Below are positions 5,415 to 21,057 of a stretch of DNA of 36,519 nt, piece after piece. Each line of letters opens with the position of its first letter. Positions within the stretch are counted from its first letter, which is position 1. Source of the stretch: Candidatus Geocrenenecus arthurdayi (GTDB lineage Archaea; Thermoproteota; Nitrososphaeria_A; Caldarchaeales; Wolframiiraptoraceae); contig JAKCEX010000010.1 in assembly GCA_023539395.1 (NCBI GenBank), positions 1-36,519 of the forward strand, in the 5' to 3' direction. The notes beneath the pieces were generated by a model. That model did no database searches and had not been told where the DNA came from. It worked only from the letters and a program-made list of their open reading frames with translations. The translations under genes were made by a program, and so were the position numbers.

Positions 5415-5891
5415 ATGGCTACCATCACTATCCCCGACGAGATCTATAACGTTATCTTGGAAATCGCTAATAAAAGAGGCATAAGCATTGAAGAACTATT
5501 AGTAGAATCTATAGCTGAAAAACTTGATCCTTTTACAAGAATCGAACTTTACATGAGGCTTTCAGAGAAGTATCTTAAAGAAGCTGAGGAGCTATATCAG
5601 AAAAATGACTTGGTTCAGGCTGGTGAGAAGCTTTGGGGAGCGGCTGCAACGCTCCTCAGTGCTTTTAGCGAAAAGACGAACCTGCCACATTATAGTCATA
5701 GAGATCTTAAAGAAGTATCCATATACTTGACTAGAACCATGAGGGATCCTGATTATACGAGGTTATTTTCAAGCCTTGAGACACTGCATGCAAATTATTA
5801 TCATAACTTTCTCGATAAAGAGACTTTTGATATCCATAAGGAGGATGCTCTTAGATTTATAGGCAAGGTTAAAAAACTTCTCAATCCCTAA
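5415..5891 (+). CDS. PaREP1 family protein (HEPN-like), copy 1
   Basis: A 158-residue soluble helical protein of the PaREP1 family, found mainly in hyperthermophilic archaea. It opens with MATITIPDEIYN and a short ribbon-helix-like part (residues 1-35), then the HEPN-like core: YMRLSEKYLKEAEELY, LVQAGEKLWGAAATLL, a SHRDL motif and LETLHANYYHNFL near the end. A paralogue with the same landmarks is at 18677-19168. PaREP1 proteins are grouped with HEPN domains by structure comparison, but their activity is unknown. ATG start with GGGAAAAGG upstream. It stands alone between the VIT1-like gene and a convergent membrane protein gene. Confidence 0.8.
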   Translation: MATITIPDEIYNVILEIANKRGISIEELLVESIAEKLDPFTRIELYMRLSEKYLKEAEELYQKNDLVQAGEKLWGAAATLLSAFSEKTNLPHYSHRDLKEVSIYLTRTMRDPDYTRLFSSLETLHANYYHNFLDKETFDIHKEDALRFIGKVKKLLNP

Positions 5892-13388: not shown

Positions 13389-13700
13389 ATGAGCAAACAG
13401 GCTTTCCAGATAAAGATTGAGACAGAAGACTTCGAGCAGTTAATCTTGCTAAGTTCGATCATGCCTGTATCCTTAATCAACATAGATGTAGAGAAGAAGA
13501 TTGCATTCGTATTTTTACAGCCTCTCGCTTCAACACTCCCAATAGTCTACTATAGTAGACTAGAGAAAATACCTCAAAATAGATTCGTTTACCTAAATAG
13601 AGTGACTGGAAAAGTTAGATTTGGAGATGAATTCTCAACAGAACCAAACGATATAACAATACCATTAGTGAAAGTAAAAAGCGGTAACCTAATAGTATGA
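13389..13700 (+). CDS. Unknown 103-residue protein
   Basis: I do not recognise a family. The protein is small and soluble with alternating beta-strand-like segments (FQIKIETEDFEQLILL, VSLINIDVEKKIAFVFL, RFVYLNRVTGKVRFGDE, ITIPLVKVKSGNLIV) and has no Cys, signal peptide or membrane span. Codon use matches its neighbours. ATG start at 13389. It sits 39 bases after the nucleotidyltransferase gene and about 180 bases before polB, both on the same strand. Real coding is likely from the length, the tidy spacing and the amino acid make-up. Confidence 0.6.
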   Translation: MSKQAFQIKIETEDFEQLILLSSIMPVSLINIDVEKKIAFVFLQPLASTLPIVYYSRLEKIPQNRFVYLNRVTGKVRFGDEFSTEPNDITIPLVKVKSGNLIV

Positions 13701-13882: not shown

Positions 13883-16174
13883 ATGTTAGAGGAAATGAAG
13901 TTCATAGGAGAGTTTTGGCTCTTAGATGTTGCTGTAGAGTTAGAAGATGGTAACCCTTCTATCTGGTTATGGTGTAAAGACAAAGATGGGAAGACATACA
14001 TTGTTAAACAAACGTATTCTCCTAGCTTTTATATTGTATCAGATAAAATTAGAGATATTCTTGAGAATTTGAGAAGTCAGCAGCTTAGAGTTGAAGAAGT
14101 TGATAGGAAAATTAGAGGTAGAGATGTTAAAGCTCTTAAAGTTTATGTTAATGTAGAAGATGTTGAGTCTGCTGCTAAGAAGATTATGAAAGGATTAAGG
14201 AATATCGAAGTATTTGAAGAAGATATTAGACCATCTACAAAATACTTGATAGAGAATGGATTAAAACCTTCAGGTGGAGTAAGAGTTTTAGGTGAATTGA
14301 TTGAAGATGGTGTATTTAAGATTGTGGAAGCTGAGAGAGTTGAGTATATTCCAGATATGATTTCGCCTCCTCTCCATGTCTTATCATTCGATGCAGTGTA
14401 TTATTCTAAGAGTGGTTCTCCACGACCTGAGAGAGACCCAGTTATAATAATCTCTATTACTACATTGAAAGGATTAAAGATACAGTTAGTGGGGGATGAG
14501 AAGGAAATACTTCGAGAATTCATAAGAATCATAGAAGAAGAAGACCCCGATGTTATTGTAGGTTTTTCATCAAATAGAATTCACTGGAATTACCTAGTGG
14601 AGAGGGCACGTATAAATGGATTAAAGCTTACTATTGGAAGACTCAGCTCAGAACCTCATACAAGTATACATGGACATGTCTCCATCAGAGGTAGATTGAA
14701 TATAGACTTAGAAGACATGGCTAGAGATATACCTGAGCTGACAGTTGAGACTCTAGAAGAATTTGTCAGCTATCTAGGTCTACAATATAGTTTTGATACA
14801 GTTGAAGATTGGGAAGTGGCTGAAACATGGGAGAAGAATCCTGAAAAAATTAAGAGATACTCTATACAGAGAGCAGAAGCACTATTGAAATGTTATGAAG
14901 CTCTAGTAGATTACATATTCAGTCTAAGTGAGCTGACTGGAATGCCTGCTGATTACGTCTTAACAGCATCTACAGGATTTAGAGTAGAAAACTACTTAAT
15001 GTATCTTGCTGTAAAGAAGAATGAGTTAATCCCTAAGAAGCCCGAGATCTCCCATGTATCATATATTGGTGGGCTCGTCAAGAGTCCTAAGCCTGGATTA
15101 CATAAAGATGTTGTAGTAGTAGACTTTAGGTCGATGTATCCGAGCCTAATGATCAAGTATAATATTTCCTTCGATACTCTAAGTGAGGATGGAGAATATA
15201 TTTCACCAAATAATTATAGATTCCGTAAAGAACCTGAAGGATTTCTCCCACATGCATTAAAGACATTAATATCTGAGAGGAGGAGGATACAGGAGAAGCT
15301 GAAGATACTTAACCCTGAATCTACCGAGGCCAGAGTATTGAATGCTCGTCAGAAAGCTGTTAAAGTAATTTCTAATGCAGTTTATGGGTATACGGGATGG
15401 GTTGGAGCAAGATGGTATACTAGGGAAGTTGCAGAAGCTACTACAAGCTGGGGTAGACAAGTCATCTTAGAATCAATGAGGAGAGCTGAAGAGCTCGGTA
15501 TGAAGGTGCTATACTCTGATACAGATTCACTCTTCCTCCAAGATTATATTGGAAAACTTGAAAGCTTCCTTAAATGGATAGAAGAAGACCTTGGCCTAGA
15601 AGCAAAGATTGACAAAATCTATAAGCGGATACTATTTACGGAAGCTAAGAAGAAGTATGCAGGGATAACTGAAGATTCTAAGATAGATATTGTTGGATTA
15701 GAAGCTGTTAGAGGGGACTGGAGCATGATAGCTAGAGAAGCACAGAGAGAAACCGTTAAAACATTACTTGAGAAAGGAGATGTAGAAGAAGCATTGAAGA
15801 CTTCTAGAAGATACGTTAAGAAGATCCTGGATGGAGACATAGAATTGAGGCAGCTAATAATATGGAAGCAGATAACTAGACCACTAGATGAGTATGAGGC
15901 TACTCAACCCCACATAGTTGTAGCACGTCAATTAATACAAGAAGGATGGAGGATACAGCCGGGAGATAAGGTAGGATACATCATTATTCGTGGTGGTGGA
16001 CCATTGTATAGAAGGGTTAAGCCATATTTTAAAGTTAGTAGGGATGAAATTGACTGGGAATACTATCTGGATAAACAAGTTATGCAAGCATGTATCCGCA
16101 TCCTTGAACCCCTTGGAGTTAAACTTGAAGAATTAAAGAAGACTGGAGAAGTTTCATTGACTGATTTTCTTTAA
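13883..16174 (+). CDS. Family B DNA polymerase with degraded 3'-5' exonuclease motifs
   Basis: A 763-residue family B DNA polymerase, the size of crenarchaeal PolB3. Polymerase motifs are intact: motif A DFRSMYPSL (D414), motif B KVISNAVYG (K494-G502), motif C YSDTDS (D546, D548). Catalysis of synthesis is therefore expected. The exonuclease motifs are not: Exo I reads FDAV where DxE is required (D170 kept, Glu replaced by V172); Exo II reads SSNRIHWNYL where the Asp is replaced by H234; Exo III reads YSIQR where YxxxD is required (R330). The fold of the domain still aligns (DPVIIISI, EEDPDVIVGF), so it is an inactivated, not a missing, domain. The C-terminus GEVSLTDFL resembles a PCNA-binding motif with Glu in place of Gln. 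ATG 13883 chosen; ATG at 13895 is an alternative. Confidence 0.93.
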   Translation: MLEEMKFIGEFWLLDVAVELEDGNPSIWLWCKDKDGKTYIVKQTYSPSFYIVSDKIRDILENLRSQQLRVEEVDRKIRGRDVKALKVYVNVEDVESAAKKIMKGLRNIEVFEEDIRPSTKYLIENGLKPSGGVRVLGELIEDGVFKIVEAERVEYIPDMISPPLHVLSFDAVYYSKSGSPRPERDPVIIISITTLKGLKIQLVGDEKEILREFIRIIEEEDPDVIVGFSSNRIHWNYLVERARINGLKLTIGRLSSEPHTSIHGHVSIRGRLNIDLEDMARDIPELTVETLEEFVSYLGLQYSFDTVEDWEVAETWEKNPEKIKRYSIQRAEALLKCYEALVDYIFSLSELTGMPADYVLTASTGFRVENYLMYLAVKKNELIPKKPEISHVSYIGGLVKSPKPGLHKDVVVVDFRSMYPSLMIKYNISFDTLSEDGEYISPNNYRFRKEPEGFLPHALKTLISERRRIQEKLKILNPESTEARVLNARQKAVKVISNAVYGYTGWVGARWYTREVAEATTSWGRQVILESMRRAEELGMKVLYSDTDSLFLQDYIGKLESFLKWIEEDLGLEAKIDKIYKRILFTEAKKKYAGITEDSKIDIVGLEAVRGDWSMIAREAQRETVKTLLEKGDVEEALKTSRRYVKKILDGDIELRQLIIWKQITRPLDEYEATQPHIVVARQLIQEGWRIQPGDKVGYIIIRGGGPLYRRVKPYFKVSRDEIDWEYYLDKQVMQACIRILEPLGVKLEELKKTGEVSLTDFL

Positions 16175-18535: not shown

Positions 18536-18676
18536 GTAAGAAAATCAGGCTATCTTAAAAATAAATATTATGGGTCTTATTCTAAACTCGGAGAGAGCTC
18601 TAGACTGATAGTTTACTGATGAGTATTTCATGAAAAGTTAATTATTATGTTTGACTTGGTTGATGGTGGAAGAATC

Positions 18677-19168
18677 GTGGCGACTATTACATTTGAGGTT
18701 CCTGAGAAGCTTCTAGTTATTCTGAAAGAGAGAGCTAAGTCAGAGGGTAAAATTATAGAAGAACTGATTAGTGAGGCAGTTCTCAAGTATTATGATCCTG
18801 GCGACCCAGGGCTTAAAGCTGAGATCTACTTAAAGCTCTGTCAGAAGTATCTTATGGAAGGTGAGAAACTGCTTAAAGAGAAAGACTATGTTCAAGCTTC
18901 TGAAAAATTTTGGGGTTCTGCCACCCAGATAGTTAAGGCAATAGCAGCTGAGAGAGGTCTTGAATTAAGAAGTCACGATGAATTACATAGCTTTATCTTA
19001 AAGCTGGAGAAGGAAGCTGGAAATCCAGATATTAGAAGGCTTTGGCAGTCTGCTGGAATGCTGCATCAAAACTTCTATGAGAACTGGCTTCCACCCGAAA
19101 TGGTTGAAGAAAACGCTGAAGATGTAAAAAAATTAATTAACATTATTAAGAATATGCTCAAGCTCTAG
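18677..19168 (+). CDS. PaREP1 family protein (HEPN-like), copy 2
   Basis: About 163 residues, a paralogue of the protein at 5415-5891. The same landmarks appear in order: ATITFEVPEKLLVILKERAK, IYLKLCQKYLMEGEKLL, YVQASEKFWGSATQIV, RSHDELHSF and MLHQNFYENWLP. I choose the GTG at 18677 because it aligns with the MATITI start of copy 1 and has GGTGG seven bases upstream; an in-frame ATG at 18647 would add ten residues. Function of PaREP1 proteins is unknown. It lies between moeA (divergent) and mobA (same strand, about 110 bases downstream). Confidence 0.82.
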   Translation: MATITFEVPEKLLVILKERAKSEGKIIEELISEAVLKYYDPGDPGLKAEIYLKLCQKYLMEGEKLLKEKDYVQASEKFWGSATQIVKAIAAERGLELRSHDELHSFILKLEKEAGNPDIRRLWQSAGMLHQNFYENWLPPEMVEENAEDVKKLINIIKNMLKL

Positions 19169-20226: not shown

Positions 20227-20580
20227 TTATATTTTAATTAATTCTTCCTCCGGTATGAATCTCTTATACCATTTATCATAAACTAGCTTGCTGACTATAT
20301 GGAATTCAATTGGATAATCTATATATTTTCGTCTAAGAGAAGCTCTTATCTTATCAATCTGTTCTAAATCGTCTATATCTGATATGATTAGCATATCTAT
20401 ATCGCTCAAAGCAGTATACTTGCCTCTAGCTGCGGAACCGAACAAGTATACCTCTGACCCTGGTAGTAGCAGCTGTACCTGATGCTTAACATCCGCTAAG
20501 ATTCTTCCTAGATTGCTGAATATATAGTTTAAACGTTTCCCCTCTTCTATATAGATATCGAAGCTAGATCTTCTCGACAA
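20227..20580 (-). CDS. MNT-type minimal nucleotidyltransferase (partner of HEPN protein)
   Basis: A 117-residue minimal nucleotidyltransferase with the polymerase-beta-like signature GSAARGKYTALSDIDML (G48-S49, D60 and D62 as metal ligands). MNT proteins paired with HEPN proteins act as antitoxins, in some systems by adding AMP to the HEPN toxin; this is family knowledge. The TTG start at 20580 lies within the 3' end of the HEPN gene (17-base overlap) and has GAGGTGG about eleven bases upstream. The catalytic residues look intact. Confidence 0.85.
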   Translation of the reverse strand: MSRRSSFDIYIEEGKRLNYIFSNLGRILADVKHQVQLLLPGSEVYLFGSAARGKYTALSDIDMLIISDIDDLEQIDKIRASLRRKYIDYPIEFHIVSKLVYDKWYKRFIPEEELIKI

Positions 20581-20950
20581 GCGGTTTCACCACCTCGGCT
20601 ATGAATTTCATCATAGCCTCCACTTCTATTCTGCTATACCTCCTTGGAAGATACCTTGAACCAATACATGCATCTTCAATCTTCGTTAACATCAATAGAT
20701 ATTCTTCTTTGTCAATTAATATATTGAGTGTTGAGGCTAGTTTTGAAAGTTCACTCACGAGCCGTGTCAATGAATGTGTTCTTGGATAGGTACCAGTTTT
20801 TATCAAGAGTTTATACTTCAGTATCAGTTGACAGTATTGCTCTATGTTGAATGCTGCCAGGTCATAGAAGCCTTCTTCTATGAGGCGTTTTGCATTTTCA
20901 AGAAACATTTGAGCTCTTTCTCTAATTAGTTCTGCTTCTTCAAAACTCAA
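20564..20950 (-). CDS. HEPN domain protein (paired with MNT nucleotidyltransferase)
   Basis: About 128 helical residues of the HEPN fold: SFEEAELIRERAQMFLENAK, EEGFYDLAAFNIEQYCQL, YPRTHSLTRLVSELS. It precedes and overlaps the MNT gene, the standard order of HEPN/MNT toxin-antitoxin pairs. The RNase motif R-x(4-6)-H expected near the C-terminus of active HEPN toxins is not visible: the corresponding region reads SRYLPRRYSRIEVEAM with no His. It may therefore be an inactive or differently acting HEPN protein. The start chosen is TTG 20950, which places the first helix at the N-terminus; an upstream GTG at 21007 would add 19 basic residues. Divergent from mobB. Confidence 0.78.
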   Translation of the reverse strand: MSFEEAELIRERAQMFLENAKRLIEEGFYDLAAFNIEQYCQLILKYKLLIKTGTYPRTHSLTRLVSELSKLASTLNILIDKEEYLLMLTKIEDACIGSRYLPRRYSRIEVEAMMKFIAEVVKPLVEKI

Positions 20951-21057
20951 TCTAACTCGATGAAGTAATAAGTAAAGCTGAATATATGTTCTCCTATACG
21001 GTAGCACTCTCCGCTCTTGAGAGTAATAGCTATATTCATCATGGCTGAATTCTTAGC

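Follow-up and report, generated by a model that had tools for sequence, protein, structure and literature searches.

Alignments and trees show that the predicted proofreading site of a PolB3 DNA polymerase encoded in the window (the whole stretch of 36,519 nucleotides analysed here, from a genome of 1.53 Mb that is 94% complete) went dead long ago and that its polymerase site is still under selection. Judged by its sequence, the gene descends from PolB3 and belongs to an exonuclease-dead (exo-dead) branch, not to the proofreading PolB3s. Its features and those of a RecJ-family neighbour gene are listed in Table 1.

Table 1. Features of the polB3 gene (window coordinates) and positions of RecJ-family genes
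Feature	Position	Strand	Evidence
PolB3-family DNA polymerase gene, 763 aa, predicted exonuclease-dead	13883..16174	+	translation, Pfam, structure-sequence match, orthologues
Codon V18, at the Tyr7 position of the uracil read-ahead pocket, Tyr replaced	13934..13936	+	equivalence from structure-sequence alignment
3'-5' exonuclease domain, aa 161-345, active site lost, predicted fold retained	14363..14917	+	PF03104, AlphaFold model
ExoI SFDAVYY: D170 kept, Glu replaced by V172	14384..14404	+	alignment
ExoII GFSSNRIHWNYL: Asp replaced by H234	14561..14596	+	alignment
ExoIII YSIQRA: Asp of YxxxD replaced by R330	14858..14875	+	alignment
Polymerase motif A DFRSMYPSL, intact	15122..15148	+	translation, alignment
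Polymerase motif B KVISNAVYG, intact	15362..15388	+	translation, alignment
Polymerase motif C YSDTDS, intact	15512..15529	+	translation, alignment
C-terminal PIP-like tail SLTDFL, putative PCNA binding	16154..16171	+	translation, family alignment
RecJ-family gene	L036:9261-10445, L042:3079-4266, L046:8299-9462, L051:8272-9480	orientation varies	beside polB3, distant lineages
RecJ-family gene, own genome	C18:35550-36725		unlinked to polB3

The polB3 gene and its two active sites

The translated frame contains SFDAVYY, GFSSNRIHWNYL, RYSIQRAEALLK, DFRSMYPSL, KVISNAVYG and YSDTDS, with SLTDFL at the C-terminus, reproducing every Exo and polymerase motif quoted in an earlier note on this DNA. The protein matches the Pfam families DNA_pol_B (E 2.5e-63) and DNA_pol_B_exo1 (4.5e-18), and its nearest solved relative is PolB3 from Pyrobaculum calidifontis (5mdn, E 8e-165, 553 bits, aa 10-763). 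The best PolB1 chain, 1s5j, lies well behind with 135 bits, and the PolB1 and PolB2 proteins of the same genome score just 162 and 107 bits. In a tree built from the polymerase domain only, from which the exo columns (the trait itself) were excluded, the protein falls inside the TACK PolB3 clade with a support of 99. Thus, what the earlier note had called a PolB3-size polymerase is assigned by alignment and tree to PolB3, not to PolB1 or PolB2. PolB2 identity, which would go with a degenerate motif C and a missing ExoIII, was rejected because YSDTDS is intact, the ExoIII region is there and the PolB2 gene is a separate one. The closest named relatives are the PolB3 proteins of Candidatus Geocrenenecus huangii (83%) and of the MAG Nitrososphaerales KUA_Bin06 (84%).

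Alignment with exo-intact PolB3s leaves one of the four catalytic acids, D170, with the others lost at V172, H234 and R330, which agrees with the earlier count of a single remaining metal-binding acid; the missing ExoIII Asp belongs to the column of R330, not Q329. The same losses, in open frames, are found in all 14 orthologues from the Wolframiiraptoraceae ('Aigarchaeota'), a set of 13 proteins with 58-84% identity besides the window protein, and this rules out chance, sequencing error or a pseudogene. The ExoI Glu position is hydrophobic throughout the set (V/I/L), the ExoII Asp position is occupied by H, Q or Y (H or Q in most) and the ExoIII Asp position by R, K or I, and the D170 column holds N in two of the 14. 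Acids preserved at shifted positions, which the earlier note had named as evidence against its reading, are not seen at the level of the aligned residues: across the 14 family sequences, no acid near 172, 234 or 330 is invariant. Motif state and activity are not related one-to-one, since PolB3 from A. pernix, whose motifs are intact, has a weak exonuclease (PMC5911459).

The AlphaFold model (mean pLDDT 74, built from 14 sequences, poor in the palm and used for exo fold retention only) keeps the exonuclease domain, with block pLDDT values mostly of 75-93 and 5mdn as the best fold match. Within the genus, dN/dS is 0.04-0.14 in the exonuclease domain and about 0.05-0.11 in the polymerase domain, both values being rough because of high dS. 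Across the phylum, the ratio of exonuclease to polymerase domain divergence is 1.55 in exo-dead versus 1.15 in exo-intact PolB3s. On these substitution measures, the exonuclease domain is under relaxed constraint yet retained. The polB3 gene is under purifying selection, and neither the acids of motifs A, B and C nor the lysine of motif B vary among the 14 family orthologues. A [ST]L-[DE]F[FL] tail is common to all full-length members, so the PCNA-like end proposed earlier is conserved as a PIP-like sequence in the family alignment.

All 51 exo-intact PolB3s that have a residue at the position of the uracil-pocket Tyr keep this Tyr, compared to 32 of the 80 exo-dead proteins. The equivalents of Pro36, Tyr37 and Phe116 (Pfu numbering, alignment from the 5mdn search), which we take to be pocket residues as well, are eroded mainly in the exo-dead set. 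This Tyr matters for the sensing of template uracil by archaeal B polymerases (PMC5911459). Loss of the pocket fits an enzyme that would have no need to stop at damaged templates, and simple relaxation could explain it too.

Several other features of the window and its genome were recorded. Upstream of polB3, a 103-aa gene (13389-13700) is conserved in the genus and has no Pfam match. A 142-bp piece of polB3 covering ExoI (14356-14497) is repeated with 99.3% identity at contig C61 27408-27549 (L348 1109-1250) of the same genome, in unrelated surroundings close to the contig end, and represents either a duplicated piece of the gene or a chimera of the assembly. Overlapping small genes at 20227-21007 resemble a nucleotidyltransferase and a HEPN protein, a possible toxin-antitoxin pair, and two look-alike ORFs of 158 and 173 aa (5415-5891 and 18647-19168) appear by eye to be of the PaREP1 type.

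Distribution and origin of the exo-dead state

PolB3 is present in at least 229 of the 398 genomes searched across the Thermoproteota, the presence or absence of polymerase genes being taken here and below from the matches listed in the searches. The 138 PolB3s that were complete enough were fetched and coded at their exonuclease and polymerase acids. Their distribution is two-peaked: 53 have all four exo acids and 80 have none to two with the polymerase acids intact, the remaining five (L217, L218, L220, L222 and L223) being broken at both sites. The exo-dead proteins come from 29 family codes plus part of f21, with Brockarchaeota, Bathyarchaeota, Culexarchaeum, Nitrososphaeria MAGs and Wolframiiraptoraceae among the named lineages. 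All five doubly broken proteins belong to f21, which is probably Sulfolobaceae; loss of polymerase acids in f21 is limited to some genera. Among the matches listed, PolB3 is absent from genus g4 of the window's own family and from most of the order.

In the polymerase-domain tree, the exo-intact PolB3s group together, and f51 with f46 and part of f21 form secondary exo-dead lineages inside this group. The first tree had several separate basal exo-dead branches. When the 47 main exo-dead sequences were constrained to one clade, the likelihood changed by +12.6 (p-AU 0.665), and repeated basal loss of the exonuclease is unneeded, since the constrained tree scores higher. One old loss with a few later ones would be the simplest reading of these trees, not a proven one; the few other losses look independent. 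The exo-dead sequences of f3 and L073 sit on long branches and are placed with the outgroups. L018 and L019 (both f3) and L073, whose motif C is DTDG, make up another, divergent type of exo-dead PolB-like protein and lie outside the main PolB3 clade.

Companion polymerases and the RecJ-family neighbour

The earlier note had suggested that another polymerase may do bulk replication, and the genome does encode PolB1, PolB2 and PolD. Its PolB1 (contig C62) has intact exonuclease motifs (LSIDIEV, TFNGDDFDMPYL and YSFYDALLV), such motifs being recognisable in each of the 81 PolB1s sampled in the phylum, and PolB2 lies on contig C29. PolD is represented by DP2 and by DP1 (C49) with the phosphoesterase motifs SDLH, GDIVD, GNHD and GHVH. 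These sequences support the earlier picture of a polymerase that would synthesise without proofreading and has another replicase at its side; its treatment as a single odd gene does not hold, because the state is clade-wide. A separate observation concerns PolB2 at L351 2642-5078, where a slightly overlapping 92-aa gene precedes it that may be an arCOG07300-type partner, and the other flank carries a gene resembling ribonucleotide reductase with an intein.

Exo-dead PolB3 genes reside in genomes with DP2 in at least 71 of 80 cases, and for 48 of the 53 exo-intact genes the genome has no DP2 among the matches listed. Exo-intact PolB3 occurs together with PolD in f35, f44 and f49. Conversely, DP2 was not found among the matches listed for nine exo-dead genomes, some of them incomplete and one, Bathyarchaeia-like, 98% complete. 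Because the states cluster on the tree, the association of exo loss with PolD rests on about three independent transitions or comparisons.

The Y-family polymerase PolY was not found among the matches listed for any of the 22 genomes of the family, the window's own included. Two sister families that lack PolB3 have it in at least 17 of their 19 genomes; in the same order, PolY occurs without PolB3 in f2 and f4, and exo-dead PolB3 without PolY in f1 and f3 (matches listed). In raw counts, PolY occurs in 117 of 143 PolD genomes without PolB3 versus 24 of 78 with it. Independent pairs on the PolB1 tree gave 1.2 for this anti-association, 2.5 against and 8.3 uninformative, and PolY is found in some genomes of the exo-dead families f5, f10, f17, f34, f38 and f58. 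Complementarity of PolB3 and PolY is suggestive and is not significant after phylogenetic correction. Genus g4 has neither PolB3 nor PolY among the matches listed, and therefore the function is dispensable there.

In most family members, a gene for a RecJ-family DHH nuclease is adjacent to polB3 or one gene away. The best NCBIfam model for this protein is RecJ_archaeal, with a score under the curated cut-off, its nearest structures are T. kodakarensis GAN and archaeal RecJ2, and its DHH motif is intact. In Benthortus (L042), the gene follows polB3 on the same strand with few bases between them. It is convergent with polB3 in Brockarchaeota, L048, L051 and L055, and adjacent in f3 and f35. In the window's own genome, the gene has moved to contig C18. 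Since an exo-intact PolB3 (L196, G138) has the same neighbour, the linkage suggests that the two proteins take part in one process, rather than that the nuclease stands in for the missing exonuclease. In genera g2 and g5 (L039, L045, L056), polB3 and polB1 are about 2-3 kb apart, separated by two or three genes (metallo-beta-lactamase, PhoU-domain protein and a small ORF).

Proposed role and its alternatives

We consider it probable that PolD and PolB1 replicate these genomes and that the exo-dead PolB3 is a PCNA-tethered, proofreading-free polymerase for repair or lesion bypass. PolD and PolB1, with their proofreading motifs intact, would most likely carry out bulk replication, and the putative PCNA-binding tail at the C-terminus would recruit PolB3 to gaps, damaged templates or forks that have stalled. 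At such sites, it would synthesise DNA without excising its own additions and, given the loss of key pocket residues, probably without stalling at template uracil, its exonuclease domain being retained for its structural contribution to the fold. More weakly, PolB3 may cover the role of PolY next to the PolB2 module. Sulfolobus without PolB3 is sensitised to 4-NQO (PMC8100216).

The same sequence evidence, and the conserved PIP-like tail equally well, would suit an enzyme of primer extension or gap filling like Pol alpha, which makes short patches (Okazaki gaps, base-excision repair) that PolD or PolB1 proofread later; in eukaryotes, Pol alpha and Pol zeta are family B enzymes whose exonuclease is inactive (PMC7544198). 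We regard this role as unlikely, however, as no conserved link to a primase gene was noticed in the loci examined, PolB3 is dispensable in genus g4, and the loss of uracil-pocket residues suits bypass slightly better. PolB3 might instead still be the replicase and be proofread in trans by the neighbouring RecJ-family nuclease, whose intact DHH motif and position beside polB3 in most family members, Brockarchaeota, f3 and other lineages would allow it, some archaeal RecJ proteins being 3'-5' exonucleases (PMC5615345, PMC5717133). This is very improbable: the RecJ gene of the window's own genome is unlinked, linkage does not track exo loss, and PolB1 and PolD already have proofreading motifs.

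That the exonuclease is still active through a site remade from different ligands, His234 and D170 among them, has about as little to recommend it. Purifying selection on the domain, its predicted intact fold and the prevalence of H or Q at the ExoII position could be read this way, but the replacements vary by lineage with no invariant acid nearby, and the domain evolves faster than in intact relatives. That the gene is decaying towards loss seems scarcely credible. PolB3 is indeed missing in g4 and most of the order, and some f21 proteins have lost polymerase acids; against this, the frame is open in every family orthologue, the polymerase acids are invariant, dN/dS is far under 1, and the exo-dead state has persisted over 29 families.

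Canonical crenarchaeal PolB3s (P. calidifontis 5mdn and the PolB3/Dpo3 enzymes of Aeropyrum and Sulfolobus) resemble the window protein in full-length family membership, polymerase motifs and PCNA-type tail, but have the exo acids and the uracil-pocket Tyr that it has lost. Archaeal PolB2/Dpo2 is likewise an exo-inactive family B polymerase beside an active replicase and extends past lesions (PMC8764526); its polymerase motifs are altered too (HGLIDS in this genome), whereas the window protein has the canonical YSDTDS. Pol zeta and Pol alpha of eukaryotes also combine an intact polymerase with an inactivated exonuclease, for lesion extension or priming (PMC7544198). Unlike them, the window protein has no zinc-binding C-terminal domain, ends at a PIP-like tail and is closest to archaeal PolB3. 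Thermococcus PolB is another B3 enzyme in a PolD-bearing organism, used in T. kodakarensis for repair, not replication (PMC6759347). Enzymes of this type keep the exonuclease motifs and uracil sensing, in contrast to the present clade, which lost the exo acids, and the window's family, which also lost the pocket Tyr.

A broader proposal, to which we give somewhat less than even chances, is that this ancient exo-dead branch, found in most sampled PolD-bearing TACK lineages that have PolB3, may be an archaeal counterpart of Pol zeta. It would have been freed once PolD (with PolB1) proofread replication, would have lost exonuclease and uracil read-ahead, its two fidelity checks, and would have partly replaced PolY.

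PolB3 is usually regarded as an active polymerase that proofreads. In surveys, PolB2 is the archaeal group that became inactivated, and PolB3 counts as active (PMC4104785, PMC7544198, PMC5911459). No published exo-dead PolB3 branch was found in the main text of the open-access papers searched. Thermostable B3 enzymes are a source of high-fidelity PCR enzymes, and the exo-dead PolB3s offer a testable prediction in dozens of lineages and may be a source of naturally exonuclease-free thermophilic polymerases. A widespread, long-kept PolB3 branch with a dead exonuclease and an eroded uracil pocket bears on how PolD, PolB1 and PolB3 share the work in archaea, and on the turning of family B polymerases into damage-tolerance enzymes, seen separately in eukaryotic Pol zeta.
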